A stretch of DNA of 38,449 nucleotides, from positions 1 to 38,449 of the forward strand of contig QYQM01000155.1 of NCBI GenBank assembly GCA_007280905.1. The letters are read 5' to 3'. The notes beneath the pieces were generated by a model. It was given only the letters and a program-made list of their open reading frames with translations. It had not been told where the DNA came from and ran no database searches. Both the position numbers and the translations under genes were made by a program. Shown here one piece after another: positions 3,896 through 18,877 of this stretch. Positions within the stretch are counted from its first letter, which is position 1; each line of letters opens with the position of its first letter. The stretch comes from Porphyromonadaceae bacterium (lineage in GTDB: Bacteria; Bacteroidota; Bacteroidia; Bacteroidales; UBA12481).

Positions 3896-6800
3896 ATGAA
3901 AAAGATAAAATTCCATTGTGTTTTCCTTTTACTGCTTATTTGGTTCTGCGGTACTTTGGAAACCACTGCGCAAAATTATCTACCTCCCAATGGCGGAGGT
4001 TTCCCTGATCCTCAATTGAGCCAGAAAGATAATGATTACCTGAACCGGCAGGCAAAGGTATTTCTGGATACAGTACAGTCAATCCTTTCAGATTATCCGC
4101 CGATATTACCCGAGGGCAGAGAAAGAGGATTTGCCAAATTACTCATAGATGCTGTTTTTCACGAGCGTTATGCAGCTTTTAGAAAGCCTGCTCAGGCATT
4201 CTTTCATGCACAGACCAATCAACTGATTAAAGAGTTGGAAGAGATTAAGGTAGAGAATGGAGCAAAGATTTGGAAGGTATACAACATGGGATTTATTGTA
4301 CGTACAAAATCAGTCACACTTGCTTTTGATATTGTCAGGGGCGCAACTTCCGGATCAGCTGACTTTACATTATCAACCGACGAAATGGATCGTATTGTCA
4401 AACAATGTGATGTCTTGTTTATTAGTCATAAACATGCGGATCATGCAGACAAAGAGGTTGCCGAAGATTTTATCAGGCTGGGCCGACCGGTTGTGGCTCC
4501 TGAACAGGTTTGGAAAGATGATCCTGTCTTTTCACTGATCACCCATCTGGATCGGACCCCGGAGAAAGTTCAAAAACTCAAACTATCTGACAATTTCGTT
4601 CTGGATGTTATCATTTATCCCGGTCATCAATTGCGTTCAGCAGATAATAATGTTGCGTTGGTTAATACTCCGGAAGGAATAACAGTTGCCCATTTGGGCG
4701 ATCAGATTAATGAAGGTGATTTCATGATCGACTATGACTGGATCGATAAAATTGCTCAAAATCATCATGTTGATATTTTAATGCCTAATGCCTGGACGAT
4801 GGATATTTCCAGGATTGTCAGAGGTTTTAATCCGGAATTGGTAGTGCCGGGACATGAACTGGAACTGGGTCATACGGTTTGGGACAGACTGCCCTATTGG
4901 GGCGATGATGAATATCTGGAACTTAATTATTCAGAATTAAAAGCCTCCGGATATCCCGTTCTTGTGATGGTTTGGGGAGAATCGTATCAATATGATCCAA
5001 AACCTATTTATCTTGATTATAATCAATCCTTTAAAGTGCGTGTAGATGATTTGCTTTCCAGAATGACTCTGCAAGAGAAATTATCCCAGATGATGACCCG
5101 TACCCCAACTGAGCTAATGCGCTTCGGAATCCCCGGATATCAATGGGGCGGCGAGGCAGGCCATTGTGTCATTGCCCGTTCAGGTGATGTGGCCACCATA
5201 TTTCCCCAGGCCATTGCTCAAGCTGCCACATGGAATAAAAGGACCGTTTACGAAGTCGCTAATGCAATGTCAGATGAATCGAGGGCAAGGGTTCATGCGG
5301 GAATACCGAAAACCGGCCTTACTTTCTGGGCTCCCGTAGTGGAAATGGCCCGCGATCCGCGATGGGGAAGGACGGAGGAATGTTATGGGGAAGACCCGTA
5401 TTTAACGTCTCAGTTGAGTCTTGCTTTTGTAAAGGGCCTTCAGGGAGATCATCCCAAATATTTGAAAACCATAGCAGCACCAAAGCATTTTGCAGCGAAT
5501 AATGAGGAGTGGTGCCGCCATAACGGTTCTTCCGAAATTGATGAACAGCTATTGCACGAGTATTACCTTCGTCCTTATCAGGTCCTTGTTGAAGAGGGAA
5601 AAGTGGAGCAGATAATGGCTGCTTATAACAGGCTGAATGGCGTTCCTTGTGCTGGTAATAAACTTCTCTTGACTGATATTCTGCGTAATGATTGGGGCTT
5701 CGACGGAACTGTTGTTTCCGATTGCAATGGAATTAAAGATTTATATGAAGGACACAAATATGTCGCCAATGTTGAGGAAGCGATTGCGCTGGCATTAAAC
5801 TCAGGGCTTGATCTGGAGTGCGGTGATTGTTTTAAAGCATCTCTGGCCGAGGCTGTTAAAAAAGGTCTGGTTTCTGCAGCTACGATTGATACAGCCGTAC
5901 ACCGGATTCTTCTCTCCCGTTTTCGTTTAGGATTATACGATCCGCCTGAAATGGTGCCATACACAAAGATTCCTCATACCGTTGTAGATGGCCCTGAAAA
6001 TCGTGCCCTTGCCAGGAAAGCCGCCCGTGAGGCTATCGTGTTGTTAAAAAATGAGAACCATCTTTTGCCATTAAATATAAAGGAGGTCAAATCAGTTGCT
6101 GTTATTGGCCCCAATGCAGCTGTTTGCCAAATGGGCGGATACACAGGAGCGTATTCCAAAGCAGTTTCGCCCATTGAAGGAATTATAAACAGGCTCGACA
6201 ACGCTAAAGTCCATTACGTTAAAGGCACAGATATAAAAATTTCACTACCGGTTATACCAAACGAGTACCTGGTTCCGCCCGATGCCAAACCGGGAGAACA
6301 CGGTTTGCGGGGAGAATATTTCAACAATACGGATTGTTCAGGTGATCCTGTTTTGGTACGAATTGATCCGGTAATTGATTTTAATTTTGGCAGAGGTGCT
6401 CCTGATCCTGCAATCCCGATTGATTACTATTCTGTGAGGTGGACAGGCCGGTTTATTGCTCCGGCTTCAGGCACCTATTTTATTGGAGGTGATTTTGACG
6501 ATGCTATTCGCCTTTATCTTGATGGCAAAAAGATTATTGACAAAACAAACAACAGAAACCGGTCATCTGATGCAGTGAAAATTGAATTGGAGGCTGGAAA
6601 ACAGTATGACTTGAGAATTGAATATACCGAACAATGGTATAATGCCGCAGTCAAACTTTGGGGTGCACCTCAGAATCCTGATAAATTCAAAGAGGCAGTG
6701 GATGCTGCCCGAAATGCTGAGGTGGCAATTGTGGTTTTAGGTACAGATGAAAGCGTGGAAAAAGAAGGTGTTGACCGTTCAGACCTGGATTTGCCCGGTG

Positions 6801-7525
6801 ACCAGGAAGAATTGGTTAAGGCGGTGTACCAGGCCAATCCAAAAACCATTGTGGTATTGCAGAATGGAAGTGCCTTGTCCATTAACTGGCTGAAGGAGAA
6901 TGTTCCCGCGATTCTTGAAACCTGGTACAACGGTGAAGAAGCAGGAAATGCACTTGCCGACGTAATTTTCGGAGATTATAATCCCGGCGGAAGGTTGCCC
7001 TTGACGTTTTATAAATCGGCAGAACAATTTCCTTCGATCAGCGATTATGATATCAGGAAGGGACGGACTTACCTGTACCCAAATAACGGAAATGATAAAT
7101 CATCAATTAGTGAACCATTATATTCTTTCGGTTATGGGCTGAGCTACACTCAATTTAACTATGGACCCTTGCAGGTCATATCCAAAAAGATTGATGCGGC
7201 AGGAAGTGTAATAGTGAAAATTTCGATGAAAAATATTGGTGACCGCTTTGGAGACGAAGTGGTACAACTTTATGCAAGAGATGAAAAATCAAGTGTTCGC
7301 CGGCCTGATAAACAACTGGTTGGCTTTGAAAGGATTTCGCTTCAACCCAATGAGATTAAAACGGTTGAGTTTGTTTTTCCTGCAAAAGATTTGGCTTATT
7401 GGGATGTAAACAAAAAATCTTTTATCGTCGAACCGGGAGTATTTACGATTATGGCCGGTAGCTCCTCTGCAGATATAAGATCAACCGGGAAGTTTAGAAT
7501 TAAGACTATCAGCATGTTACCATAA
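3896..7525 (+). CDS. Metallo-beta-lactamase-fold / GH3 / PA14 fusion protein
   Basis: This is a 1209-residue protein with an N-terminal Sec signal ending near T-T-A-Q (about residue 26), so it is exported. Residues about 85-350 form a metallo-beta-lactamase-fold hydrolase: the H-K-H-A-D-H motif supplies His178, His180, Asp182 and His183, followed by A-H-L-G-D and V-P-G-H-E metal-ligand motifs. From about residue 380 a complete GH3 begins (D-D-L-L-S-R-M-T-L-Q-E-K), with nucleophile V-V-S-D at Asp609. A PA14 domain is inserted at about 800-925. The acid/base loop E-K-E-G-V-D-R (Glu957) follows, and an Fn3-like domain closes the protein. All catalytic residues of both enzymes appear intact. The MBL partner resembles UlaG-type lactonases in motif style, but its substrate is unknown. 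The fused architecture is unusual to me. Confidence 0.9.
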   Translation: MKKIKFHCVFLLLLIWFCGTLETTAQNYLPPNGGGFPDPQLSQKDNDYLNRQAKVFLDTVQSILSDYPPILPEGRERGFAKLLIDAVFHERYAAFRKPAQAFFHAQTNQLIKELEEIKVENGAKIWKVYNMGFIVRTKSVTLAFDIVRGATSGSADFTLSTDEMDRIVKQCDVLFISHKHADHADKEVAEDFIRLGRPVVAPEQVWKDDPVFSLITHLDRTPEKVQKLKLSDNFVLDVIIYPGHQLRSADNNVALVNTPEGITVAHLGDQINEGDFMIDYDWIDKIAQNHHVDILMPNAWTMDISRIVRGFNPELVVPGHELELGHTVWDRLPYWGDDEYLELNYSELKASGYPVLVMVWGESYQYDPKPIYLDYNQSFKVRVDDLLSRMTLQEKLSQMMTRTPTELMRFGIPGYQWGGEAGHCVIARSGDVATIFPQAIAQAATWNKRTVYEVANAMSDESRARVHAGIPKTGLTFWAPVVEMARDPRWGRTEECYGEDPYLTSQLSLAFVKGLQGDHPKYLKTIAAPKHFAANNEEWCRHNGSSEIDEQLLHEYYLRPYQVLVEEGKVEQIMAAYNRLNGVPCAGNKLLLTDILRNDWGFDGTVVSDCNGIKDLYEGHKYVANVEEAIALALNSGLDLECGDCFKASLAEAVKKGLVSAATIDTAVHRILLSRFRLGLYDPPEMVPYTKIPHTVVDGPENRALARKAAREAIVLLKNENHLLPLNIKEVKSVAVIGPNAAVCQMGGYTGAYSKAVSPIEGIINRLDNAKVHYVKGTDIKISLPVIPNEYLVPPDAKPGEHGLRGEYFNNTDCSGDPVLVRIDPVIDFNFGRGAPDPAIPIDYYSVRWTGRFIAPASGTYFIGGDFDDAIRLYLDGKKIIDKTNNRNRSSDAVKIELEAGKQYDLRIEYTEQWYNAAVKLWGAPQNPDKFKEAVDAARNAEVAIVVLGTDESVEKEGVDRSDLDLPGDQEELVKAVYQANPKTIVVLQNGSALSINWLKENVPAILETWYNGEEAGNALADVIFGDYNPGGRLPLTFYKSAEQFPSISDYDIRKGRTYLYPNNGNDKSSISEPLYSFGYGLSYTQFNYGPLQVISKKIDAAGSVIVKISMKNIGDRFGDEVVQLYARDEKSSVRRPDKQLVGFERISLQPNEIKTVEFVFPAKDLAYWDVNKKSFIVEPGVFTIMAGSSSADIRSTGKFRIKTISMLP

Positions 7526-7558
7526 AACCTCAACCATAATAATCTGGTAAACAAATAG

Positions 7559-10525
7559 ATGAGAGTAAGAAAATTTTCATCCTTCTTTTTTCTCTGTGGT
7601 TCTCTGTGGTCCTCCTTGGTCCTCTGTGTAATTTATTCACTTACACAGAGTTGCACAGAGGACCACAGAGAGCCACAGAGAAAGATTGATTACACCCACC
7701 TCGTTGATCCTTTCATCGGTACAGCCGGCGAGGGCAATACCTGGCCCGGTGCTTCGGTGCCTTTTGGTGCAGTCCAGCTGAGTCCGGATACCAACCTGGA
7801 AGGACATGCTATATACGGTGGGTATTATTATCCCGATTCCACTATTATCGGGTTTTCTCATACCCATTTAAGCGGTGTAGGTGAACCCGAATACCGCGAC
7901 CTGCTGTTTATGCCAACAACAGGCAAAGTCAAACTTAACCCAGGCATTGCAGAAGCCAAAGGTTCTGGCTTTCGATCCGCTTTCGATCATTCAGATGAAG
8001 CCGTATCTCCCGGTTATTACAGGGTTTTGCTGCGCGATTACGATGTGACCGCAGAATTGACTGCAACGCTAAGATGTGGCTTTCATAAATATACATTTCC
8101 AAAAACTGACAGTGCGCATATTGTAATTGATTTGGCTCATCCGGGAGGGGCCGAGGACCTTTATATCAAGAGGATCAGCGATTCTGAAATTGAAGGATTA
8201 CGCCGCTCTCACGGGTGGGCATGGGATCAATATGTTTATTTTGTTGCCAAATTTTCAAAACCATTTTCATCAATAGATATTGCGGTTAATGATTTAACAT
8301 TGGCAGGTTCATCCGAGGCCCGGGGTAAAAATGTTAAAGCCGTCATCAATTTTCAAACTAAAAAAGGAGAAGCCGTTCTGGTGAAAGTGGGAACATCGGC
8401 AGTGAGTGTTGATGGAGCCAGAAAAAACCTCGCTGAAGAAATCCAGGACTGGAATTTTAACCAGGTGGTAAGTGATGCCAAAAATTCCTGGAACAAGGAA
8501 TTGGCTAAAATTGAAGTTGAAGGAGGTACGCCGGAACAACAGAAAGTTTTTTACACCTCAATGTACCATGCGCTTTTAAGTCCGAATGTTTTTATGGACG
8601 TCGACGGCAAGTACCGTGGTGTGGATCATAAGGTACATGAGGGAAAGGACTTTACAAACTATACTGTATTTTCACTATGGGATACCTTCCGCGCGTTGCA
8701 CCCGATTTTCACTATTATCAACCAAAACAGAACCAACGATTTTATCAAATCCCTGCTCCGGATGTATGACGATGGCGGACGTCTCCCCATGTGGCCTCTT
8801 GCCGGAAATTATACCGACGATATGCTTGGATATCATGCCGTTCCGGTAATTGTTGATGCCTATATGAAAGGGATCAGGGATTATGACGTTCAAAAAGCTT
8901 TTAAAGCCGTGCGCCATAGTGCGGAACTTGATAAGCTGGGATTAAAATACTATAAAAAACTCGGGTACCTCCCTTTTGACCGACAGGGGGAGTCGGTTTC
9001 CAAAACCCTTGAGTATTGCTACGACGACTGGTGCATATCGCAGGTGGCCAAAGAAATGGGTTCAAAAGATGATTATTTGTACTATCATCTGCGGGCACAC
9101 TTTTATGAAAATGTAATTGACACTTCCACCGGATTCATGCGTGGACGCGCATTCGACAGAAGCTGGTTAGAGCCCTTTGATCCCATGATCAATTCAGCCT
9201 ACTCCGAGGGTAATGCGTGGCAATATATGTTTGTACCGCATGATGTAAATGGGTTGATCACGAAAATGGGTGGTGACCAGAAGTTTTCGCAATGGCTGGA
9301 TACCCTTTTCTCAATGAAATCCAAAGAAAAAGGGATGATCGGGCAATATGCTCATGGCAATGAACCGAGCCACCATCTGGCTTACCTCTATAATTATAGC
9401 GGACAAGCCTGGAAAACACAATACCTTGTTCATAAAATTTTGACTCAACTATATTCCGCAACTCCGGACGGACTTGCCGGCAATGAAGATTGCGGACAAA
9501 TGTCGGCCTGGTACATACTTAGCGCCATGGGTTTTTATTCAGTGACTCCCGGACAGAATATATATATTATCGGAAGTCCGCTTTTTGAAAGAGCCACAAT
9601 CAACCTTGAAAATGGCAAGACGTTCGTCATTCGCGCAAATAATATTTCTGATCAGAATATTTATATCCAATCATCCAAACTCAATGGACTCCCCTATACA
9701 AAATCATATATCAGCCATGATGATATTATGAATGGCAGAGAGCTGGTTCTCGAAATGGGGCCAAATCCAAGTAAGGCGTGGGGAACGGAGAAAAATGACC
9801 GGCCGTTTTCAGAGAATGGCACTGAGGTGGTTCAACCTCCCTTTATCAAATCGGGAGATTTACTATTCATTAATTCCTCTGTGGTCACTTTGGGATGCGA
9901 CACTGAGAATTCCATAATCCGGTATACTCTTGACGGATCGGAACCGAGTGAACAATCCGTTACTTATACCAAACCATTTGAACTTAAGGAATCTACCGTT
10001 CTGAAAATGCAATCATACCACAAAGAAATGAATCCCGGGATGGCGGTTACTTATGAATTTGAAAAAGCTGAGCTAAAGGAACCTGCATCGATTACTGAAA
10101 TTATGCCGGGATTGCATTATGATTATTATGAGCGGTTTTTTGTTTCGGCTGAAGACCTCGACCTGGTTGATCCGGTTTCTTCAGGCACTATAACTGATTT
10201 CAATATCAGTGAGTTGAAAAGAGAGAACTATTTTGGATTCAGGTATGCTGGATACATAAGGGTTTCCACGGATGGAATATATACCTTTTTCCTGAAATCG
10301 AATGACGGTAGCAGGTTATATCTTGATGGTGAGGAACTTATTGAAAACGATGGCAACCATGGAGCTATCGAGGAACCAGGCAGTATCGGGTTAAAAAAAG
10401 GCCTGCACAAAATAGAAGTTAAATATTTTCAATGTGGAGGCGGAAAAACATTAAAAGTGTGTTGGGCGGGACCCGGATTTGAAAGGCATGAAGTTCGGGC
10501 ACAAGAGCTGTTTATTGATAACTGA
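7559..10525 (+). CDS. GH92 family alpha-mannosidase with CHB_HEX_C and PA14 domains
   Basis: This is an exported, calcium-dependent exo-alpha-mannosidase of family GH92, the type used on yeast mannan or N-glycans. The 988-residue protein opens with a hydrophobic leader and a possible lipobox L-T-Q-S-C. Mature GH92 sequence then starts at D-P-F-I-G-T-A-G-E-G-N-T-W-P-G-A. The F-S-L-W-D-T-F-R motif and the G-N-E-D-C-G-Q-M-S-A-W-Y motif (Glu643, Asp644) are family hallmarks. After about residue 740 come a chitobiase/hexosaminidase C-terminal-like domain and a terminal PA14 module, both probably carbohydrate-binding. The leader codons lie inside a 43-base-arm inverted repeat, so the export signal may have been created or replaced by that repeat. 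Linkage specificity is not readable. Confidence 0.93.
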   Translation: MRVRKFSSFFFLCGSLWSSLVLCVIYSLTQSCTEDHREPQRKIDYTHLVDPFIGTAGEGNTWPGASVPFGAVQLSPDTNLEGHAIYGGYYYPDSTIIGFSHTHLSGVGEPEYRDLLFMPTTGKVKLNPGIAEAKGSGFRSAFDHSDEAVSPGYYRVLLRDYDVTAELTATLRCGFHKYTFPKTDSAHIVIDLAHPGGAEDLYIKRISDSEIEGLRRSHGWAWDQYVYFVAKFSKPFSSIDIAVNDLTLAGSSEARGKNVKAVINFQTKKGEAVLVKVGTSAVSVDGARKNLAEEIQDWNFNQVVSDAKNSWNKELAKIEVEGGTPEQQKVFYTSMYHALLSPNVFMDVDGKYRGVDHKVHEGKDFTNYTVFSLWDTFRALHPIFTIINQNRTNDFIKSLLRMYDDGGRLPMWPLAGNYTDDMLGYHAVPVIVDAYMKGIRDYDVQKAFKAVRHSAELDKLGLKYYKKLGYLPFDRQGESVSKTLEYCYDDWCISQVAKEMGSKDDYLYYHLRAHFYENVIDTSTGFMRGRAFDRSWLEPFDPMINSAYSEGNAWQYMFVPHDVNGLITKMGGDQKFSQWLDTLFSMKSKEKGMIGQYAHGNEPSHHLAYLYNYSGQAWKTQYLVHKILTQLYSATPDGLAGNEDCGQMSAWYILSAMGFYSVTPGQNIYIIGSPLFERATINLENGKTFVIRANNISDQNIYIQSSKLNGLPYTKSYISHDDIMNGRELVLEMGPNPSKAWGTEKNDRPFSENGTEVVQPPFIKSGDLLFINSSVVTLGCDTENSIIRYTLDGSEPSEQSVTYTKPFELKESTVLKMQSYHKEMNPGMAVTYEFEKAELKEPASITEIMPGLHYDYYERFFVSAEDLDLVDPVSSGTITDFNISELKRENYFGFRYAGYIRVSTDGIYTFFLKSNDGSRLYLDGEELIENDGNHGAIEEPGSIGLKKGLHKIEVKYFQCGGGKTLKVCWAGPGFERHEVRAQELFIDN
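7589..7683. repeat. Long imperfect palindrome inside the GH92 start region
   Basis: Arms 7589-7631 and 7641-7683 are reverse complements at 37 of 43 positions, around a 9-base loop. Each arm is built from short CTCTGTGG/CTCTGTGT-like units, so the element resembles a dispersed REP-like repeat. It is translated in the GH92 gene and encodes most of the signal peptide and the lipobox cysteine. Confidence 0.85.
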
Positions 10526-10568
10526 GTGCCTGTAGTGACCATAGCGGCTACTTGGTTTCGTTCAACTT

Positions 10569-10680
10569 GTTTTATACCCAATTGACGCCCTACTGATTTT
10601 TTCCCCTTTCATTGTTGCTTACCTGCTGATCATTTTGTTACCTTCGTGTGCGTCAACTTTGTATAAAACACTAATACGTT
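10569..10680. repeat. Inverted repeat, possible attC-like cassette boundary
   Basis: Two 20-base arms, 10569-10588 and 10650-10669, match at 15 of 20 positions as inverted repeats: the outer nine bases GTTTTATAC/GTATAAAAC and the inner GACGC/GCGTC ends are paired. ACGTTA follows at the right side (10676 onward), as it does next to the structured site at 34311-34442. The rest of the 218-base gap between the GH92 gene and the NmrA remnant shows no ORF. A TTG-N21-TACCTTCG promoter-like string lies within it, but it is weak. Confidence 0.4.
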
Positions 10681-10715
10681 ATGCTTCAGGCAAAAAAACA
10701 TAAACCCAAATAATT

Positions 10716-11373
10716 ATGGACATGAATAACAAAATAATTATTTATGGAGGATTTAAAAATACTTGAATTCGGAGAAATAAAACTGGAAATCGAATTAAAA
10801 ATATCTAAATCAGATTTTAACTGGACAATATTGGGAAATGCTCCTGCATTTGAGATTTTCTTTGCATTTGTTAAAAACGGGAAGATGGCTGTACCAGGTG
10901 GCGGATTAAAGGCAATCCCAAGTATTTCATCAGAAGATGTAGGAGAAATAACAGCACAAACTGTATTGCGTGAAGATTTAAACGGACAGCGAATAAAATT
11001 AACCGGACCTGAAGCTTTTACATTTCCTCAAGTGGCAAAATTATTTTCAGAATTATCAGGACAAAAAGTAAAACATATCAAAATACCACTTTTTGTTTTT
11101 AACATATTATCGCTAATCATTTTACCTTTTAATCCGTTTGTAAGATTCTTTTATAAAAGTCTAAAAATGTTGAATAACTTTCCTGCTGATATGGCAGAGA
11201 AAGTACCAGAAGACCATAAATTATTAAGAAAATTATTTGATTATGAACCTGTAAGTTTGGAGATGGAAATTAGACAAAGAATTAAAGAAAATAAATTTAA
11301 AGACACCGATAAAAAGCACGAACGCATAAAAGGCGTTAGTGGTAAGGCTATGACGACACAACCGACAGACTAG
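10716..11373 (+). pseudogene. NmrA-type NAD(P)-binding protein, internally deleted
   Basis: The frame beginning at 10716 reads M-D-M-N-N-K-I-I-I-Y-G-G, the first strand and glycine loop of a Rossmann fold, then stops after four further codons. The frame from 10744 carries the C-terminal half of an atypical short-chain dehydrogenase of the NmrA type: F-N-W-T-I-L-G-N-A-P, P-S-I-S-S-E-D-V-G-E-I, and L-T-G-P-E-A-F-T-F-P-Q-V near the middle. About 90-100 residues that normally separate these parts are missing and the frame is shifted. The 209-residue ORF therefore lacks its cofactor site and is unlikely to be a working enzyme, although it could still be translated. It lies directly before the mercury-type operon and after an attC-like repeat. 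Confidence 0.75.
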
Positions 11374-11383
11374 AAAGTCGGTT
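11360..11383 (+). terminator. Possible terminator hairpin after the NmrA remnant
   Basis: A 7-base stem AACCGAC/GTCGGTT with a 10-base loop is followed by AATTTT. The hairpin overlaps the stop codon of the NmrA remnant. The T tract is short, so termination efficiency is uncertain. Confidence 0.4.
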
Positions 11384-11408
11384 AATTTTGGACTTTTGTA
11401 TTTTAGCA

Positions 11409-11439
11409 TTTGCTTAAATAAACAAATTGGCTATCTTTG
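11409..11439 (+). promoter_or_regulatory. Bacteroidota-type promoter for the mercury-type operon
   Basis: TTTG at 11409-11412 and TATCTTTG at 11432-11439 are separated by 19 bases, matching the TTTG/TAnnTTTG consensus of the Bacteroidota primary sigma factor. The first ATG (11445) lies only five bases after the -7 box. Transcription would therefore begin at or beside the start codon, giving a leaderless mRNA. This also excludes the upstream TTG at 11427 as a start. Confidence 0.7.
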
Positions 11440-11444
11440 TGCCC

Positions 11445-11819
11445 ATGGACAACAACTCTTGCATAAGACAACAGGCGGACATTAAACAAATAAACCGTTG
11501 TAAAGACAGAGTTTCAGAACTCAACGGCTCATTTGACTATTTATCAAACGGACTTGAATTGGCAGGTAATAACGTAAGACTGAAAATTCTCTTTATGCTT
11601 TACGAAGAGAAACGACTTTGTGTTTGCGACCTAAGCGACATTCTTGGAATGACAATTTCGGCAGTTTCACAGCATTTACGAAAACTCAAAGACCGTAAAC
11701 TCATTCAGACAGATCGAGAAGCACAGACCATTTTTTACTCATTGACAAAGGAGTATGAAATAATGCTAAAACCGTTTTTCAAAATACTTGACGAAAACAA
11801 AATCTTGGAAACAATATGA
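11445..11819 (+). CDS. ArsR/SmtB-family metal-sensing repressor (mercury-type operon)
   Basis: This is a 124-residue winged-helix repressor. The metal-binding motif L-C-V-C-D-L matches the alpha-3 CxC site of ArsR-type sensors, and the recognition helix I-S-A-V-S-Q-H-L-R-K-L follows. Two further cysteines near the N-terminus (N-S-C and R-C-K) could complete a thiol site. It overlaps the next gene, a MerTP transporter, by four bases, so it is likely an Hg(II)- or thiophilic-metal-responsive autorepressor of this three-gene operon. I chose the ATG at 11445 because the promoter -7 box covers the upstream TTG start. Metal specificity cannot be proven from sequence. Confidence 0.88.
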   Translation: MDNNSCIRQQADIKQINRCKDRVSELNGSFDYLSNGLELAGNNVRLKILFMLYEEKRLCVCDLSDILGMTISAVSQHLRKLKDRKLIQTDREAQTIFYSLTKEYEIMLKPFFKILDENKILETI

Positions 11820-12418
11820 AAACAGATAACAAATTAATCGGTGCAGGACTTTTGACAGCAATTGCCGCCTCATTGTGTTGCATAACGCCAGTTTTAGCTC
11901 TCATAGCGGGGACAACAAGCGGACTTGCTTCAACTTTTTCTTGGCTTGAACCTTTCCGACCGTATTTTATCGGTTTGACAATTTTGGTGCTTGGCTTCGC
12001 TTGGTATCAAAAACTAAAACCTAAAAAACAAATTGACTGCAACTGCGAGACAGACGAAAAACCAAAATTTATTCAGACAAAAATGTTTTTAGGAATTGTA
12101 ACTGCGTTTGCAATTATTATGCTTGCATTTCCTTACTATTCAAATATTTTCTACCCAAAAACAGAGAAGCAAATAATTGTAGTTGACAAATCCAACATTC
12201 AGAAGGTTGAGTTTACAATAAGCGGAATGACTTGTAACAGTTGTGCTGAACACGTTAATCACAAAGTGAATAAACTGACAGGAATTATATATTCAAATGC
12301 TTCCTACGACCAAGGAAACGCAATTATTGAGTTTGACAATTCCAAAACTAACATTACCGAAATAGAAAAAGCAATTAACTCAACAGGATATTCAGTAACC
12401 GACAAACAAGAGAAATAA
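11816..12418 (+). CDS. merTP: MerTP-type mercuric ion transport fusion protein
   Basis: This 200-residue protein joins a MerT-like membrane part to a MerP-like metal-binding domain. The first membrane helix carries the S-L-C-C-I-T-P cysteine pair used by MerT to take up Hg(II). A second helix and a cytoplasmic C-N-C pair (about residues 73-75) follow, then a third helix. The C-terminal heavy-metal-associated domain shows G-M-T-C-N-S-C. This arrangement is known in Bacteroidota mercury operons, where the fused MerP domain hands Hg(II) to the carrier. Its ATG overlaps the stop of the ArsR-family gene, so the two are co-translated. There is no merA reductase in the window, so imported mercury would need an enzyme encoded elsewhere, or the locus is incomplete. 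Confidence 0.85.
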   Translation: MKTDNKLIGAGLLTAIAASLCCITPVLALIAGTTSGLASTFSWLEPFRPYFIGLTILVLGFAWYQKLKPKKQIDCNCETDEKPKFIQTKMFLGIVTAFAIIMLAFPYYSNIFYPKTEKQIIVVDKSNIQKVEFTISGMTCNSCAEHVNHKVNKLTGIIYSNASYDQGNAIIEFDNSKTNITEIEKAINSTGYSVTDKQEK

Positions 12419-12419
12419 A

Positions 12420-12626
12420 ATGGAAATCATAACAAAATCAGTTATTACCTGCCCAAACTGCGGGCACAAAAAAGAAGAAGTAATGCCGACAGACGCTTGC
12501 CAATATTTTTACGAATGTGAAAACTGCAAGACTGTTCTGAAACCACAACAAGGCGACTGCTGTGTTTATTGCAGTTATGGTTCGGTAAAATGTCCTTCTA
12601 TTCAAGAGAAAAAGAGTTGTTGTTAA
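12420..12626 (+). CDS. GDCCVxC-domain small cysteine-rich protein
   Basis: A 68-residue cytosolic protein contains C-P-N-C, C-E-N-C, the family signature G-D-C-C-V-Y-C, and a terminal S-C-C. GDCCVxC proteins, some of them selenoproteins in other organisms, are commonly annotated beside mercury transport genes. Here all signature positions are cysteine codons and no in-frame TGA is used. It starts one base after the merTP stop, so it belongs to the same operon. A role as a thiol metallochaperone or mercury-binding factor is inferred from cysteine content and neighbours. The family's biochemical function is unknown to me. Confidence 0.8.
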   Translation: MEIITKSVITCPNCGHKKEEVMPTDACQYFYECENCKTVLKPQQGDCCVYCSYGSVKCPSIQEKKSCC

Positions 12627-12641
12627 CCGACAGAAAAAAAA

Positions 12642-13264
12642 GCCCAGCCGCCAATAAGTGAGGCTTCGTGTGGCGTAGCCTAACATGAAGCCGTGTTGCA
12701 CGAAATCCGGTTGTGCAGTCTCTGAAACGGTAAAAATCTATGGGGATTCAATAATTCCAGGCTATTCTGGAAGAGGGTAAGGCGATAATTTTCGACGGTG
12801 TTTGAGAACCGACAAATAGGAAAGAAGGATTTTAACAAGGCCATGGTAGCCTGATAATCATGATATTCGTAAAGCGCATATAATAGTTTATCCTGTCCTT
12901 CTCAGAACCTTCCCACAGCAGGGGCAGCTGTCCGGGCTGTAATTGAGATGCACCCACAAATTTGTTTCCAGTTTTTCTTTTCTAATACTTTCGGAACAGA
13001 GAGTCCAAATGCCTGTTGGAGCTCACGGAGCTCGGGTCGTTTTGCAGTGGGTAGTAGTCCATAATGCCGGATCCGGACAAATCCTTTTGGAAGAATATGT
13101 TGGCAGAACTGCCGAAGGAACTCCGCCCCACCGAGCGTCATTTCTTTTTGCCGGTCATCGCGGTAGTCACGATAACGGAAGCGAACGCCAGACTCGTCGA
13201 TAGTCAATAGCCGGTGGTTGCTGATAGCTACTTTGTGCGTGTAACGACCCAGATATTCCAACTG
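12642..13264 (-). mobile_element. IS91-family remnant, copy 1 (C-terminal transposase part only)
   Basis: This stretch matches the second copy at 17761-18345 almost base for base in two blocks: 12642-12773 with 17761-17913, and from about 12910 to 13263 with 17994-18345. In between, about 135 bases are unrelated. Copy 1 lacks the short GC-rich hairpin of copy 2 near its left end and has lost the entire N-terminal two thirds of the transposase. It directly follows the mercury-type operon and precedes the arsenic-like island. Confidence 0.8.
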
Positions 13265-13354
13265 ATGGGCAATTTGGGATTTGCTAGCACACATGTTGCA
13301 CATTTGTCTGTCCCCAGCCCATAAGCCAACACAAGAAGGCAGCCAAAAGAGCAA
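12902..13354 (-). pseudogene. IS91-family transposase fragment, C-terminal
   Basis: The minus frame encodes about 110 residues of the conserved C-terminal region of an IS91-type transposase: E-Y-L-G-R-Y-T-H-K-V-A-I-S-N-H-R, the R-F-R-Y-R-D-Y region, and I-R-H-Y-G-L. It matches the second copy in the window closely. The HUH histidines, the catalytic tyrosine context and the N-terminal zinc region are absent. The first 30 or so residues of this frame, upstream of E-Y-L-G, are unrelated sequence. It cannot be functional. Confidence 0.8.
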
Positions 13355-13430
13355 AATTTACTACCCTACTTAAATTTGAAAGTCTTGAGGAACACCATCT
13401 TAAAGTGTTAATAAAAAAATCTTTAAAAAA

Positions 13431-13460
13431 TTTGTACTTTAATTATTTTATATATCTTTG
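13431..13460 (+). promoter_or_regulatory. Promoter of the arsenic-like island
   Basis: TTTG at 13431-13434 and TATCTTTG at 13453-13460 are spaced by 18 bases, a strong Bacteroidota promoter. The imperfect palindrome 13460-13483 (GCAT...ATGC), which contains ATAAACAT, overlaps the likely transcription start and the ATG at 13480, a typical place for an ArsR operator. A second palindrome with the same ATAAACAT core occurs at 13829-13844. Confidence 0.65.
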
Positions 13461-13479
13461 CATCGATAAACATGTAGAT

Positions 13480-13806
13480 ATGCTTAAACACATTAAAAAT
13501 ATAAAACCAAGAAAAAAGGACGTATACTTATGTGAGGAGTGTTTGGAACTCTTCCGTGCTTTCGCAGATAAAACCCGTCAGGAAATTATTATGGTTTTTG
13601 CTACTAATAAGGAAATATGTGTTAATGATATTGCAAAAAACTTCACCTTGTCTCGTCCGACAATTTCCCATCATTTAAATTTAATGAAGCGAGCAAAAGT
13701 ACTTAACACTCGCAAAGATGGAAAGGAAGTATATTATTCTATTAATAAATCCTACATTAAAGGATTATTGACATCAATATTAGACAATATTGATAGTTGT
13801 TGTTAA
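13480..13806 (+). CDS. arsR: ArsR-family repressor with C-terminal Cys-Cys
   Basis: This is a 108-residue winged-helix regulator. The helix-turn-helix reads L-S-R-P-T-I-S-H-H-L-N-L-M-K. Cysteines lie at L-C-E-E-C near the N-terminus, at E-I-C-V-N-D (where classic ArsR has C-V-C), and as a C-C pair at the very end. The metal site is therefore not the canonical CxC. It may use the N-terminal CxxC with the C-terminal pair, as several variant arsenic sensors do. I prefer the ATG at 13480, because the upstream codons of the longer frame overlap the promoter. It is the first gene of the island and the presumed autoregulator. Confidence 0.85.
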   Translation: MLKHIKNIKPRKKDVYLCEECLELFRAFADKTRQEIIMVFATNKEICVNDIAKNFTLSRPTISHHLNLMKRAKVLNTRKDGKEVYYSINKSYIKGLLTSILDNIDSCC

Positions 13807-13828
13807 AAAAATTTAAAACTAGATGTCG

Positions 13829-13844
13829 AAATGTATAAACATTT
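13829..13844. promoter_or_regulatory. Candidate second ArsR operator palindrome
   Basis: AAATGT-ATAA-ACATTT is a palindrome with perfect 6-base arms. It lies between the arsR stop and the next gene and shares ATAAACAT with the palindrome over the arsR start. The shared core suggests a second binding site for the same repressor. This is inference only. Confidence 0.4.
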
Positions 13845-13911
13845 AAACTCTTAAACATATCAAATTATAAAGGAGATAGTATTACAATCTAAAAAAACCG
13901 CTTGTGGTTGT

Positions 13912-14310
13912 ATGTTACCAGTTAGTAATGGTGATTTAAAAACCAATGTTAACGAAACAGAATTAATTCAAAATGATAAAGAAAACTCAAAGGACATGTT
14001 AAATGTAATTATAATAAGTGCAGCCTGCTGTGTTCCCGGCATGGCTGCTTTTGACGAACAGGCACGAAAAGTCATAGATAAGGCAATTTCTGAAACAGGT
14101 ATAATTGCAAAAATCACAATGGTGCCTGCAACCTCCGCTATGTTCGGAGGTGCTTACCGCAAAATCATGAATGATATGATACAAATGAATAACAAAGGTA
14201 AAATCGTTGCCCCTGCTATTCTTATTAACAAAGAGGTTGTCTCTTATGGCGTACCAAATCTCGAAGACATGAAAACAGCATTAAAAAAATTTGCAGAAAA
14301 TAAAATTTAA
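13912..14310 (+). CDS. Small double-cysteine protein before ArsA, ArsD-like or thioredoxin-fold
   Basis: A 132-residue protein whose core (from about residue 30) reads N-V-I-I-I-S-A-A-C-C-V-P-G-M. Cys39 and Cys40 lie at the end of a beta strand, followed by a helix and a P-A-I-L-I-N-K-E-V strand-turn typical of thioredoxin-like folds. ArsD metallochaperones also present a vicinal cysteine pair and a similar fold and sit beside ArsA, so an ArsD-like role is plausible, but the sequence is not a clear ArsD. A strong AAAGGAG at 13869-13875 lies 36 bases before the ATG with no in-frame start at normal spacing. The intervening codons are open and read K-K-T-A-C-G-C-M, so the true N-terminus may differ. 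It ends 14 bases before arsA. Confidence 0.7.
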   Translation: MLPVSNGDLKTNVNETELIQNDKENSKDMLNVIIISAACCVPGMAAFDEQARKVIDKAISETGIIAKITMVPATSAMFGGAYRKIMNDMIQMNNKGKIVAPAILINKEVVSYGVPNLEDMKTALKKFAENKI

Positions 14311-14324
14311 ACAGAGAAATAATT

Positions 14325-15242
14325 ATGAATAAAGAATTAAGTAAAATTATGTTACCCGAAGAATCAACAAAATATTTATTCTTTGGCGGTAAAGGTGGAG
14401 TTGGTAAAACAACGATGGCAACAGCAACAGCTATATGGTTTGCCGACCACAATTATAAAACAACAATTGTCTCGACAGACCCTACTGTAAGTTTATCGGC
14501 AGTCTTTAATCAGCAAATTGGTGGAGACAGAGAAGTGCCTATTAACCATGTTCCGAATTTATGCGGATTGAATATTAATCCTGTTGATGCAAAAGGCGTC
14601 TTTCAAAAACGACTTAACAATATGATGTCGCAAATCAGCGGTACATTTGGTAATGACGTTGTAAGTACTCCCTGCATGGAAGAAATGGCAACATTTGACC
14701 AGTTTGTTTCATTTCTTGAAAATCCCGATTGCGATGTAATTGTATTTGATACTGCACCAACGGGAAAATCATTAAGAGAATTAGCCATGCCTTTTGATTG
14801 GGCTTCTTTCATGCAAAAACAAATACAAGAAGGGCAAAAATTGGCAGAACTATTACCTTCCGATGCTAATTATTTTGAGGATTTAGAACGAGATAAAAAA
14901 CGTTACGATTATGCAATGTCAGTTTTATGTAATAGTACTTCAACAGTTTTTTCTCTCGTGCTTTTACCTGAACGGTTGCCCATTGCAGAAACACAGAGTG
15001 CAATTGCAGGCTTAAAAAATCTTGGTATTCCGGTACAATCTTTAATCATTAACCAGTGTATTTTATCCGAAGTAATAGAAGGGAACCGCTTTTTAATAGC
15101 AAGAGCAAATTTACAAAAACGCTACCTTGCGGATATTGATACACGTTTCCCTGAGTTCATTAAAGTTCGGCTACCTTTATTAGATAGCGATGCTTCTGAT
15201 TTGTCCTCGTTGCGTCAAATAGGCAAGATAATCTATGGATAA
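14325..15242 (+). CDS. arsA: ArsA-family ATPase, single-domain
   Basis: A 305-residue deviant-Walker ATPase has a P-loop F-G-G-K-G-G-V-G-K-T-T (Lys28), a switch I motif V-S-T-D-P (Asp52), and F-D-T-A-P-T-G at 141-147. It has one nucleotide-binding half, unlike the duplicated E. coli ArsA. S-T-P-C-M-E-E-M-A-T-F-D-Q-F places Cys117 where E. coli ArsA has its metal-binding Cys113. The second ligand (E. coli Cys172) has no obvious counterpart. In known systems ArsA energises the ArsB or Acr3 efflux permease, yet no permease is encoded nearby. The Get3 tail-anchored targeting branch is the main alternative family member, but the ArsR and double-Cys neighbours favour a metalloid role. Confidence 0.85.
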   Translation: MNKELSKIMLPEESTKYLFFGGKGGVGKTTMATATAIWFADHNYKTTIVSTDPTVSLSAVFNQQIGGDREVPINHVPNLCGLNINPVDAKGVFQKRLNNMMSQISGTFGNDVVSTPCMEEMATFDQFVSFLENPDCDVIVFDTAPTGKSLRELAMPFDWASFMQKQIQEGQKLAELLPSDANYFEDLERDKKRYDYAMSVLCNSTSTVFSLVLLPERLPIAETQSAIAGLKNLGIPVQSLIINQCILSEVIEGNRFLIARANLQKRYLADIDTRFPEFIKVRLPLLDSDASDLSSLRQIGKIIYG

Positions 15243-15259
15243 TAATATTAAAATTTAAA

Positions 15260-15937
15260 ATGTATATGAAAAATCAACAATCTCAAAACGGAATAATAGA
15301 GGCTCCTTTGAAAGTCAGCAGAATTAGGACAATCTATAACATAGCAAGCAATTACTATTTTTTGGCTACTCTGATTGAAAAGAAACCTTTAATGAGAGGC
15401 ATTGAATTAGCAGAAATCAAACAAAATGATAAAGTCTTAGAAGTTGCTGTTGGTCTTGGGTTCAACTTTTTAGAATTTCTGAAAAGAGTAAACAGCGAAA
15501 ACATTGTTCATGGAATTGACCTTTCACCAAAAATGTTAGATAAAACAAAGAAACTGATAACTAAAAAAGGGTTCTCAAATTTCAAATTGAGTGAATCTGA
15601 TGCCCGTCAATTACCATTTCCAAATGATACTTTTGATATTTTGTTCAATAGCTATATGTTAGACCTTACACCGCTTAATGACTTTCCTGTTGTACTAAAT
15701 GAATTTTATCGTGTTCTTAAAAAAGGCGGGCGATTGATAACTGTTAATTTCAGCAAAAAAGATTGTTCACCAGTTTTTTCTGAGAAACTTTATAAATTAA
15801 CTCCTTCTTTATGGCATGGTTGCCGTCCGGTATTAATGGAATCTTTTATAAAACAAGCTGGTTTCAAAAATATTCAAAGAGAATTTCATAATGGTATTTT
15901 TACTTTACCCTCTGAAATTGTAATAAGTGTAAAATAA
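15260..15937 (+). CDS. Class I SAM-dependent methyltransferase (UbiE-like)
   Basis: This is a 225-residue Rossmann-fold methyltransferase. Motif I is V-L-E-V-A-V-G-L-G-F-N, in which the usual second glycine position is altered. H-G-I-D-L-S supplies the acidic residue that binds the SAM ribose, A-R-Q-L-P-F-P-N-D-T-F-D is the typical UbiE-style post-II segment, and R-V-L-K-K-G-G-R follows. The substrate is not readable: it lacks the cysteine set of characterised ArsM arsenite methyltransferases. It begins 17 bases after arsA and is followed 33 bases later by the ferredoxin/flavodoxin gene, so all are likely co-transcribed. The context suggests modification of a metalloid, a thiol or a carrier related to detoxification. 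Confidence 0.85.
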   Translation: MYMKNQQSQNGIIEAPLKVSRIRTIYNIASNYYFLATLIEKKPLMRGIELAEIKQNDKVLEVAVGLGFNFLEFLKRVNSENIVHGIDLSPKMLDKTKKLITKKGFSNFKLSESDARQLPFPNDTFDILFNSYMLDLTPLNDFPVVLNEFYRVLKKGGRLITVNFSKKDCSPVFSEKLYKLTPSLWHGCRPVLMESFIKQAGFKNIQREFHNGIFTLPSEIVISVK

Positions 15938-15970
15938 TAATATTTGTATTATAAAAATGAGCTTCTACAA

Positions 15971-16768
15971 ATGAGAGGTATTATTTGTTACTATTCAAAC
16001 TCTGGCAACACAAAATTAGCCTGTCAGTATATCGTAAAAAATATCAATAATATTGATTTCGTTTTTTTAAATATTGCTAAAGACAGTATTCCTGATTTAG
16101 ATATTTATAATATTGTTGGATTTGCTGCCTTCACAGATTTTTTTGGTCCATCAAAATTTGTTCAAACCTTTATAGAAAAATTACCCAGACAGAATAATAA
16201 ACCGGCGTTTGTGTTTAACACTTACGGTTTCATTAGTGGCAAAACACTCAAGATTCTCGATAAATGGGTTACTACAAGAGGCTTTAAAGTAATTGCAGGA
16301 TATTCTCTTCATACCCCGGAAAGTTATCCGCCGATGATTGCTAATGGTAGAGGTAATGAGCAAGCTCCCGGCGAAAAGGAAATGAATAAATTTAACTGTT
16401 TCATTTCTGAATTGAACCGACTTCTTTATACACTTGGTGAAGGTAAAGAAATCAAAAAAAATAAGATAAAGATTGGTTTATTTGAGATTTTATTACCCAT
16501 GTATTCTCGTACTAAAGCACGAAAAAATATGGGTGAAAAATATATTGATGAGGCACTTTGCACGGAATGCGGTACTTGTGAAAAGATATGTCCGTATGAA
16601 GCAATTAAACTTAGTCCGAAGCCTATTATTGATATGAATAAATGTTATGGATGCTGGGCTTGTTATAATCATTGTCCCGATAAGGCTATTTACACAAAAA
16701 AGTATCGGGGAATTGGTCACTATCCAAAACCTAATAGCCAATTGATGAAAAAATTGAAAGTCAAATGA
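15971..16768 (+). CDS. EFR1-family flavodoxin-ferredoxin fusion
   Basis: A 265-residue cytosolic electron carrier. The N-terminal domain is a flavodoxin with an FMN phosphate loop, Y-S-N-S-G-N-T-K. The C-terminal 70 residues contain two [4Fe-4S] motifs, C-T-E-C-G-T-C-E-K-I-C-P and C-Y-G-C-W-A-C-Y-N-H-C-P. EFR1 proteins with this order are widespread in anaerobes but mostly uncharacterised. I prefer the ATG at 15971 over an in-frame TTG 27 bases upstream, because the flavodoxin beta strand begins right after it. Set between two methyltransferase genes and after arsA, it would supply low-potential electrons to a redox step of this pathway, for example reduction of a metalloid before methylation. 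That role is inference. Confidence 0.85.
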   Translation: MRGIICYYSNSGNTKLACQYIVKNINNIDFVFLNIAKDSIPDLDIYNIVGFAAFTDFFGPSKFVQTFIEKLPRQNNKPAFVFNTYGFISGKTLKILDKWVTTRGFKVIAGYSLHTPESYPPMIANGRGNEQAPGEKEMNKFNCFISELNRLLYTLGEGKEIKKNKIKIGLFEILLPMYSRTKARKNMGEKYIDEALCTECGTCEKICPYEAIKLSPKPIIDMNKCYGCWACYNHCPDKAIYTKKYRGIGHYPKPNSQLMKKLKVK

Positions 16769-16840
16769 AAGAATAGATTTGTTTAATTACAGGTGCAACT
16801 TTTAGTGTAGGTAAAGAAATTGCAGTTGTTCCTATAAAAT
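16765..16840 (+). pseudogene. Short-chain dehydrogenase N-terminal remnant
   Basis: Reading from the ATG at 16765, which overlaps the end of the preceding gene, gives M-K-E-stop-I-C-L-I-T-G-A-T-F-S-V-G-K-E-I-A. The string I-T-G-A-T-x-x-x-G-K-E-I-A is the nucleotide-binding start of short-chain dehydrogenases, interrupted by one TAG. About 20 more codons without further resemblance lead into the methyltransferase start. It looks like a gene stump left by a deletion. Confidence 0.5.
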
Positions 16841-16893
16841 TGTGTTCAATAGTTGAAAAAAGTAAATATTTAATAATTAAAAGGAGAAAAAAC

Positions 16894-17703
16894 ATGTATA
16901 AATTAAAAACAAAGATGATACCTTCCGGTGAGGATATTATTGAAATGAGCGGAGTAGAAACATTACATCCTGGTGGATTTGATTTAAGTAAACGCATTGG
17001 TGAATTAGTGAATTTTAATCCTTCTGTGCATGTACTTGATGTCTCTTCAGGAAAAGGCACATTTGCATGTTATTATGCACAAGAATTTGGGTGCAAAGTA
17101 ACTGGAATTGATATTAACAAAAAATTTGTTGAGATTAGTATTGAAAAAGCAAAAAAAAGAGATTTGTCAAACCTTGTGGATTTTAAGATTGGAGATTCAA
17201 CGAAGCTACCTTTCCCTGATAATTCTTTTGATGTTGTGGTTAATGAATGTGCTGTAGGTCTTACAGTTATTAATAATCCACAGGGAGTTATAAACGAAAT
17301 GTTTAGAGTAACAAAACCGAATGGAACTATTGTAATCCATGAAAGCATATGGTTAAAAGACTTGACGCAAAGCGTAAAAGATGAATTAGCAATGAAAGTA
17401 GGAACAACACCTTACACCGTAGAAGAATGGAGTGACCTGCTAATAAAAGCTGGAGCTAAAATAAAAACTGTAGAAGATTGGTCTGGCATTGAAAATATTC
17501 AGAAAATAAGACCAAATCATAAATGGAATAAAAAAAGGCCACATGACTTTTTAACCCTTCCTGAAAAACTAACTTTAATTCCTAAAATTATTTTCAAATA
17601 TGGTATTGGCGCACTAAATGAAATCAATAAATTTCAAAAAGAAGGTTTAAAATATTTCAACGAGGGATACTATGGATATGTCTTAATGATTGGGAGTAAA
17701 TGA
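16894..17703 (+). CDS. Second class I SAM-dependent methyltransferase
   Basis: A 269-residue methyltransferase. An N-terminal H-P-G-G-F-D-L-S segment precedes motif I V-L-D-V-S-S-G-K-G-T-F and the acidic strand end V-T-G-I-D-I-N. L-P-F-P-D-N-S-F-D-V-V-V-N-E-C-A-V-G-L follows, then a P-N-G-T motif. The start is set by AAGGAG at 16881-16886, seven bases before the ATG at 16894, although the frame is open further upstream into a dehydrogenase stump. Single cysteines occur, but not the three-cysteine arrangement of known ArsM proteins. It closes the arsenic-like operon, about 60 bases before the second IS91 remnant. The substrate is unknown; a metalloid or small thiol is the leading guess. Confidence 0.83.
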   Translation: MYKLKTKMIPSGEDIIEMSGVETLHPGGFDLSKRIGELVNFNPSVHVLDVSSGKGTFACYYAQEFGCKVTGIDINKKFVEISIEKAKKRDLSNLVDFKIGDSTKLPFPDNSFDVVVNECAVGLTVINNPQGVINEMFRVTKPNGTIVIHESIWLKDLTQSVKDELAMKVGTTPYTVEEWSDLLIKAGAKIKTVEDWSGIENIQKIRPNHKWNKKRPHDFLTLPEKLTLIPKIIFKYGIGALNEINKFQKEGLKYFNEGYYGYVLMIGSK

Positions 17704-17926
17704 AAGATTAATATGACAAATAAACTGAAATGCAGGTATGATAAACGATTGATGATAATCGCCCAGTTGCTAATAAGTAAGGCTTCGTGTGGCGCAGCCT
17801 AACATGAAACCGTGTTGCACAGCCTGCCCCGCTGGAAGCGGGGAAATCCGGTTGTGCAGTCTCTGAAACGCTAAAAATCTAAGGGGATTCAATAATTCCA
17901 GGCTATTCTGGAAACGATTACGGATT

Positions 17927-18877
17927 TCATTGGGGATAAACTGTAAGGTGGTGACCGGCCAGCCAAATACATTCCAATTGTAACCATTTTGCCTTTCCCA
18001 CAGCAGGGGCAGCTGTCCGGGTTGTAATTGAGATGCACCCACAGATTTGTTTCCAGTTTTTCTTATCTATTACTTTCGGAACAGAGAGTCCAAATGCCTG
18101 TTGGAGCTCACGGAGCTCGGGTCGTTTTGCAGTGGATAGTAGTCCATAATGCCGGATCCGGACAAATCCTTTTGGAAGAATATGTTGGCAGAACTGCCGA
18201 AGGAACTCAGCCCCACCGAGCGTCATTTCTTTTTGCCGGTCATCGCGGTAGTCACGATAACGGAAGCGAACGCCCGACTCGTCGGTATTAAGCAGCCGGT
18301 GGTTGCTGATCGCTACTTTGTGCGTGTAACAACCCAGATATTCCATTTGCTCAGGACCAGCATAGGGTTCTTTGGCATAAACAACCCAGCCTGTCTGGTA
18401 TAGCTCCCGGATGAAGGTTTTCTCCTGGGGAATTTGTTTGACTAAACCAGCCATGAACTTACCCCGGAACACAACCGAAAGGTTCTTGACATTGAACAGG
18501 AACATTGTCCCGCTTGCTGATGTAATGAACAGGCGGTTGAGTTTGTCGGGAACTGTAAAGACCACATGAAAATACGGTACCGGCAATAAATCCAGTTTCC
18601 GATTTTCGATCCAGGCTTCCCGATGGGTATTCTGGCATTTAGGGCAATGACGGTTACGGCAACTATTATAGCTTATACGAATGTACCCGCACACATCGCA
18701 TTGATCAATATGTCCGCCCAAAGATGAAATACGGCAATGCTGTATGGCGCGCAATGTCCGCTGTACATACGCATTGGGCGAATAGTTTTCTATAAATGTG
18801 TCCCCGAACCGTCCGATTACCTGTGCCAGTTCATAAGAAGTATTTCCGCAGACCATACACGGCAAACTTGAAATCAC
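17927..18877 (-). pseudogene. IS91-family transposase lacking the HUH motif
   Basis: The frame contains the N-terminal zinc-binding region C-D-V-C-G...C-R-N-R-H-C-P-K-C-Q, then P-V-P-Y-F-H-V-V-F-T-V-P-D-K-L-N-R-L-F. After a short bridge (I-T-S-A-S-G-T-M) it continues as F-L-F-N-V-K-N-L-S-V-V-F-R-G-K-F and the C-terminal domain. In intact relatives these parts are separated by some 60-80 residues that include the H-P-H-x-H catalytic histidines. They are gone here, in frame, so the protein would be 316 residues and catalytically dead. The first dozen residues are out-of-frame recombinase sequence, and the real N-terminus is near Y-E-L-A-Q-V-I-G-R-F. Confidence 0.8.

Follow-up and report, generated by a model that had tools for sequence, protein, structure and literature searches.

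The 38,449-nucleotide contig QYQM01000155.1 of a Porphyromonadaceae bacterium (assembly GCA_007280905.1), hereafter the window, contains an operon of six intact, closely spaced genes, all on the + strand (13480-17703). Their order is ArsR, CC, ArsA, MT1, EFR1, MT2, where CC is our name for a 132-amino-acid double-cysteine protein and MT1 and MT2 are the operon's two methyltransferases; this is the order given in the original prediction, which was made from the letters of the window alone. In textbooks, ArsA is the motor that drives the arsenite pump. Here, it likely belongs to a permease-free module for the capture of a metal or metalloid (metal(loid)), and it is plausible that the metalloid itself would be methylated. 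We tentatively favour a combined reading, whereby the operon would be a mobile, permease-independent capture-and-methylation module for metal(loid)s without a membrane pump of its own. Its ArsA falls in a single-domain clade that keeps a metalloid cysteine, nearly always has a double-cysteine partner, was not seen beside any known arsenic pump gene and spans two domains of life, which makes the role of ArsA when it is not driving a pump testable.

Distribution of the CC-ArsA pair

Relatives were sought with a profile-guided scan of 84,980 species genomes, the matches listed not being a census. Among these matches, the ArsAs of Methanoperedens-type archaea and Chloroflexi are 71-78% identical to that of the window, and those of Methanomassiliicoccales and a small number of further archaeal metagenome-assembled genomes (MAGs) 49-52%. 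Whole-genome searches with a CC profile added loci: in the Methanoperedens order 12 genomes out of 186 were positive, in the Methanomassiliicoccales order 29 out of 147, and among Chloroflexi 3 out of 301; single Bacteroidota genomes were positive too. Of the 53 loci recovered, which come from Bacteroidota, Chloroflexi, Methanoperedens and Methanomassiliicoccales and hence from two domains, 52 have CC and ArsA side by side on one strand; the exception (L145) has CC without ArsA. All 50 full-length ArsAs of the cassettes group together in a single clade (support 1.0). Within it, the window's ArsA falls in a subclade of 12 members (support 0.999) with sequences from Methanoperedens and Chloroflexi, apart from the Bacteroidota copy L035. 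This grouping indicates that the CC-ArsA pair was transferred between domains or phyla, in either direction. Scans of viral contigs with two ArsA queries found no relatives. A tblastn search of plasmids with CC gave no match, and the best-ranked plasmid matches to ArsA were pump ATPases at 33-38% identity. No paper joining ArsA, methyltransferase, arsenic and Methanoperedens was found in the literature searched. In the Bacteroidota genome G454, one locus (L036, 97-1544) has an ArsA gene cut short near the contig end and a DGC-domain cysteine-rich protein upstream of CC.

Absence of a linked arsenic permease

The original prediction held that ArsA here has no permease to work with, and would have been abandoned had the same genes always stood beside Acr3 or ArsB elsewhere. 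BLAST matched neither Acr3 nor ArsB nor ArsP in the 53 loci (0/53; flanks reaching about 10 kb at most, less where a contig ends), with the provisos that the loci are non-independent and that the ArsB query was the E. coli sequence, so a divergent ArsB might be missed. Classical ArsD-ArsA loci among the matches listed from the same scan have Acr3, ArsB or ArsP within 6 kb in 43 of 59 cases. The lack of a pump gene beside ArsA therefore generalises across the whole clade, and the idea is not refuted. A truncated Acr3 operon was also considered as an explanation for the window, and was rejected because no related locus carries a permease. None is encoded near the operon itself; however, another contig of the same genome (C19) encodes Acr3 (TIGR00832, 460 bits against a cut-off of 283), so that the absence is true of the locus only. 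Moreover, out of 18 cassette genomes, 16 have matches to PF01758 over its cut-off and 9 have them to PF02040. Such genes are common, and their presence neither proves nor excludes action of ArsA in trans. Separately, one conventional operon (L056, 6711-10906) reads Acr3-ArsD-ArsM-ArsA, with a true ArsM between ArsD and ArsA, and is an independent link between methylation and ArsA.

A single-half ArsA that retains a metalloid cysteine

As predicted, the window's ArsA consists of a single half (305 amino acids). It belongs to the ArsA/GET3 superfamily, scoring 217 bits against PF02374 (cut-off 24.3) and 205 bits against TIGR00345 (cut-off 135). With one half and 170.9 bits against a required 650, it falls outside TIGR04291, the family of canonical pump-driving ATPases. 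That family is further marked by the metalloid cysteines Cys113/Cys422, which have a counterpart here in Cys117, and by a linked ArsB or Acr3, for which none of the 53 loci gave a match, the Acr3 of the window's own genome being unlinked. The earlier claim that one E. coli metal cysteine is kept was upheld by alignment: Cys117 stands at the position of Cys113 as well as at that of Cys422 in E. coli ArsA, and the residue aligned with Cys172 is not a cysteine. Since the one residue matches both, a homodimer would recreate the Cys113/Cys422 pair from its two copies of Cys117.

This position is Cys in 50/50 cassette ArsAs and in 87/87 ArsD-linked ArsA domains, and Gly in five archaeal Get3-like proteins without ArsD. 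Castillo and Saier found that the metal cysteines are not conserved in single-domain ArsAs, whose roles they described as unclear (PMC2963123); the cassette clade is thus an exception. The same work describes an operon of Alkaliphilus metalliredigens with two single-domain ArsAs and a linked Acr3 (PMC2963123). Both operons are of arsenic type with single-domain ArsA, but that of the window has one ArsA, a CC partner and no Acr3.

The CC protein and the regulators

Vicinal cysteines are present in 53/53 CC homologs, whilst the third cysteine of ArsD (Cys18) is present in 0/53. CC resembles ArsD, with its Cys12-Cys13, in having a vicinal pair at the end of strand 1 and its gene beside ArsA, but it has no match to the Pfam ArsD profile. 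An hhalign comparison of CC with ArsD gave a probability of 95 and an E-value of 3e-8 with the Cys-Cys motif in register. In the control, MTH895-type CxxC thioredoxins scored the same as ArsD and an unrelated profile gave no match, weakening the case for ArsD membership. A structure model of CC (predicted local distance difference test 83) retrieved a mixture of thioredoxins and ArsDs, none below an E-value of 1e-3. By sequence and predicted fold, CC is a thioredoxin-superfamily protein that is ArsD-like in cysteine position and gene context, and not a demonstrated ArsD. The operon as a whole resembles ArsD-ArsA-ArsB/Acr3 operons in its ArsA fold, Cys113/422-type cysteine, vicinal-cysteine thioredoxin-fold neighbour and ArsR control. 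It differs in its single-half ArsA, in a CC without the third ArsD cysteine, in the absence of a linked permease and in the presence of methyltransferases and EFR1.

Three unrelated families supply the regulators next to the pair, and all of these regulators bear cysteines: ArsR in the window, MarR in Chloroflexi and HTH_10 in Methanoperedens. The window's ArsR is a member of the ArsR/SmtB metalloregulators, with cysteines in LCEEC, EIC and a C-terminal SCC, and its sequence lacks the type-I CVC motif. The Chloroflexi MarR proteins have two invariant cysteines and, in 4 of 5, a terminal Cys-Cys; the Methanoperedens HTH_10 proteins have five invariant cysteines in 13/13 loci. Together with Cys117 of ArsA and the invariant motif of CC, these cysteine-bearing regulators make it probable that the CC-ArsA module serves a thiophilic metal(loid).

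Methyltransferases and variable partners

In five loci (L037, L038, L039, L050, L040), the gene that follows CC-ArsA is 44-49% identical to MT2; in a sixth (L125) the figure is 44%. In four Methanoperedens-type genomes and in two Chloroflexi loci of one genome, an MT2 ortholog immediately follows the pair. Among the 186 genomes of the Methanoperedens order, MT2 occurs only in those four, always on the cassette contig beside the pair. MT1 is about 31% identical to MT1-like genes of the Chloroflexi loci L040 and L042. Beyond the pair itself, L040 reads CC-ArsA-MT1-MT2, which is the window's order without EFR1.

The earlier statement that neither methyltransferase has recognisable ArsM cysteines was slightly too strong. 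Cys119 of MT2 is invariant among MT2 homologs and aligns with the cysteine of the ArsM SNC(V) motif; none of the other ArsM cysteines is present. A single active-site cysteine suffices for arsenite methylation by TtArsM (PMC8649762), and with this precedent the one ArsM-like cysteine of MT2 leaves such an activity possible. ArsM proteins, including TtArsM, share the class I S-adenosylmethionine (SAM) fold with the window's enzymes, but these score below the family cut-offs and have a different C-terminal region, the likeness to TtArsM being by description only. The best NCBIfam match of MT2 is the DVU_1556 family methyltransferase (NF045667), below cut-off.

EFR1 belongs to the family of that name, with its profile above cut-off and Fer4 stretches present; no paper using the family name was found in the literature searched. 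Other redox flavoproteins occur near the pair: several Methanoperedens loci have a gene resembling flavin mononucleotide reductase, and L126 has a flavin reductase. In 10 Methanoperedens loci, FtsX/MacB-type permeases, 17/17 on the same strand, and ATP-binding cassette (ABC) ATPases lie downstream of the pair. In three of the Methanoperedens loci (L044, L124, L149), a gene for a secreted protein comes after the cassette, together with genes for one or two permeases of the FtsX/MacB type and for an ABC ATPase. In Bacteroidota L035, CC is followed by TolC, a membrane-fusion protein and an AcrB-family resistance-nodulation-division (RND) pump. The Chloroflexi loci L041, L042 and L043 continue with genes for a CrtC-type lipocalin and PIG-L-like proteins, L042 also with AveC-like and MT1-like genes, giving them a biosynthetic look. 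As these neighbours vary from locus to locus, the conserved core is CC-ArsA and the processing or export partners are variable, which leaves room for readings based on a different efflux or on small-molecule metabolism.

Proposed mechanism and alternatives

Under the capture-and-methylation reading, a thiophilic metal(loid), As(III) or Sb(III) being the likeliest, would release ArsR and the operon would be transcribed. CC would bind the metal(loid) and pass it to the homodimeric single-half ArsA at the site recreated by the two Cys117 residues. Hydrolysis of ATP would then power delivery of the metal(loid) into cytosolic processing and not to Acr3 or ArsB. MT1 and MT2 would be the processors in the window's genome, receiving the substrate from ArsA, and EFR1 may donate low-potential electrons, so that the substrate stays reduced from one methylation to the next. 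The broadest form of the idea is a permease-independent branch of ArsA, exchanged between archaea and bacteria, in which CC and homodimeric ArsA hand a trivalent metalloid by means of ATP straight to SAM methyltransferases with dedicated flavodoxin/ferredoxin reductants. In this general form it is doubtful; if true, ArsA would be a substrate-channelling ATPase and not a pump motor. The system could also bring to light an overlooked way in which metalloids are methylated in methane-cycling and anaerobic habitats.

The original suggestion of a non-efflux ArsA coupled to methylation drew support from the distinct Cys117 clade, the want of permease linkage, methyltransferases linked in three phyla and recurrent flavoproteins, whilst the reductive methylation of arsenic itself is still an inference. 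Several observations weigh against it. The residue equivalent to His148, an ArsA ligand, is Lys in the 12 sequences of the window's subclade. Against the ArsM model PRK11873 (cut-off 263 bits), MT2 scored 75.9 and MT1 65.3 bits, and neither has the full cysteine set. The fold matches of the MT2 model are small-molecule methyltransferases (TleD, RebM, phosphoethanolamine methyltransferase), with ArsM not favoured. Most cassette loci, those of Methanomassiliicoccales, have no linked methyltransferase, and searches of related loci turned up no EFR1 next to the pair. The ABC and RND neighbours described above also count against it, and the window's own genome already has a true ArsM in addition to its Acr3.

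With an unlinked Acr3 and a canonical ArsM in the host, ArsA could still energise Acr3 in trans, MT1, EFR1 and MT2 being accessory. The genome also encodes an ArsC-type reductase, PF01758 and PF02040 proteins are widespread among the cassette genomes as noted, and single-domain ArsAs acting with Acr3 have been described (PMC2963123). However, none of the 53 loci is linked to Acr3 or ArsB, whereas classical ArsD-ArsA pairs usually are, the cassette clade is separate from all permease-linked ArsAs, and the presence of Acr3-type genes, being common anyway, is weak evidence; we regard efflux in trans as rather unlikely. It is very unlikely that CC-ArsA instead serves the FtsX/MacB-type ABC or RND exporters, moving a metal(loid) or an organic form of it that the methyltransferases would make. 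The same-strand permeases with their ABC ATPases in the 10 Methanoperedens loci and the AcrB-family set of L035 suggest such a role, but no exporter is linked in the window or within the cassette of the MT2-bearing Chloroflexi loci, the MT2-bearing Methanoperedens loci have ABC genes further off or none seen, and gene neighbourhood in MAGs is a weak guide.

Alternatively, the pair could carry a thiol-bound or hydrophobic intermediate in small-molecule metabolism, with the methyltransferases modifying an organic compound and not a metal. The resemblance of the MT2 model to natural-product and lipid-headgroup methyltransferases and the lipocalin, AveC-like and PIG-L-like genes of the Chloroflexi loci are consistent with this, but the invariant metalloid cysteine of ArsA, the motif of CC, ArsR and the other cysteine-bearing regulators and the neighbouring mer operon argue otherwise, making it quite unlikely. 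Get3-like protein targeting by a single-half ATPase is extremely improbable. Get3/TRC40 proteins are likewise single-domain deviant-Walker ATPases, and the best PDB matches of the window's ArsA include archaeal structures of Get3 type. Yet Cys117, absent from the Get3-like outgroup, is present, the CxxC zinc motif (CDFC in 3ug6) is lacking from the sequence, the aligned site included, and the constant CC partner, the ArsR control and a clade nested with ArsD-linked ArsAs also speak against it. A Get3 identity was therefore rejected on cysteine pattern and tree.

Genomic setting and operon layout

The favoured capture-and-methylation reading includes mobility, and the setting of the operon (Table 1) bears on this. 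The operon has a guanine-plus-cytosine content of 32%, against 43-44% in the flanking chromosome, and is flanked on both sides by IS91-family copies in the same orientation. The two copies share direct repeats of 60, 71 and 300 nucleotides that are 90-97% identical, and one-ended transposition by them could mobilise the operon. A mer operon lies directly to the left with its own Bacteroidota-type promoter (11409); no merA was seen adjoining it. A second ArsA of the same kind was not found in the own genome, and in a search of 295 genomes of the same order no ortholog of ArsA exceeded 37% identity, which points to horizontal acquisition. Taken together, the A+T-rich sequence, the IS91 flanks, the mer neighbour and the missing relatives suggest that the operon is most likely an acquired, mobile, metal-resistance-like island.

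Table 1. Features of the window around the ArsA operon, and the ars operon on contig C19 of the same genome.
Feature	Position	Strand	Evidence or content
mer operon: ArsR-type regulator, MerTP fusion, GDCCVxC protein	11427..12626	+	NF033556 307 bits, NF041374 109 bits
Left IS91-family (Y2 transposase) fragment	12642..13354	-	direct repeats with right copy
Predicted Bacteroidota-type promoter, TTTG-N18-TATCTTTG	13431..13460	+	sequence pattern
ArsR/SmtB-family regulator	13480..13806	+	NF033788 79 bits (cut-off 55)
CC: thioredoxin-fold, vicinal Cys-Cys, candidate ArsA metallochaperone	13912..14310	+	132 amino acids
Single-half ArsA ATPase, 305 amino acids	14325..15242	+	PF02374 and TIGR00345 above cut-off
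MT1: UbiE-like SAM methyltransferase	15260..15937	+	PF01209 75.7 bits
EFR1: flavodoxin and two [4Fe-4S] redox protein	about 15971..16768	+	NF038196 123 bits (cut-off 75)
MT2: SAM methyltransferase, invariant NECAVGLT cysteine	16894..17703	+	homology; NF045667 95.8 bits, below cut-off 155
Right IS91-family Y2 transposase copy	17761..18877	-	PF04986 121.6 bits, PF14319 108.9 bits; repeats
ars operon, contig C19 (L117)	6275-12346		Acr3, ArsC-type reductase homolog, rhodanese-like protein, ArsM, permease related to SaoE/SO_0444, CcdA-like, thioredoxin-like

The ArsM of contig C19 is genuine (PRK11873, 333 bits against a cut-off of 263). From CC through EFR1 the genes are separated by only 14-33 bases. 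The pattern TTTG-N17-22-TAnnTTTG, of which 0.07 are expected per 4.5-kb segment, has two matches on the + strand of the 38-kb window, the predicted promoter of the operon and that in front of the mer operon. The region had been taken to begin at a GTG at 13405; the ATG at 13480 is the better start for ArsR, and for EFR1 and MT2 we prefer starts at about 15971 and at 16894. Lastly, the CC frame is open for 19 codons 5′ of its ATG (13855-13912), where ACGC precedes it behind AAGGAG and there is no standard start codon; the real start of CC may differ or be mutated.

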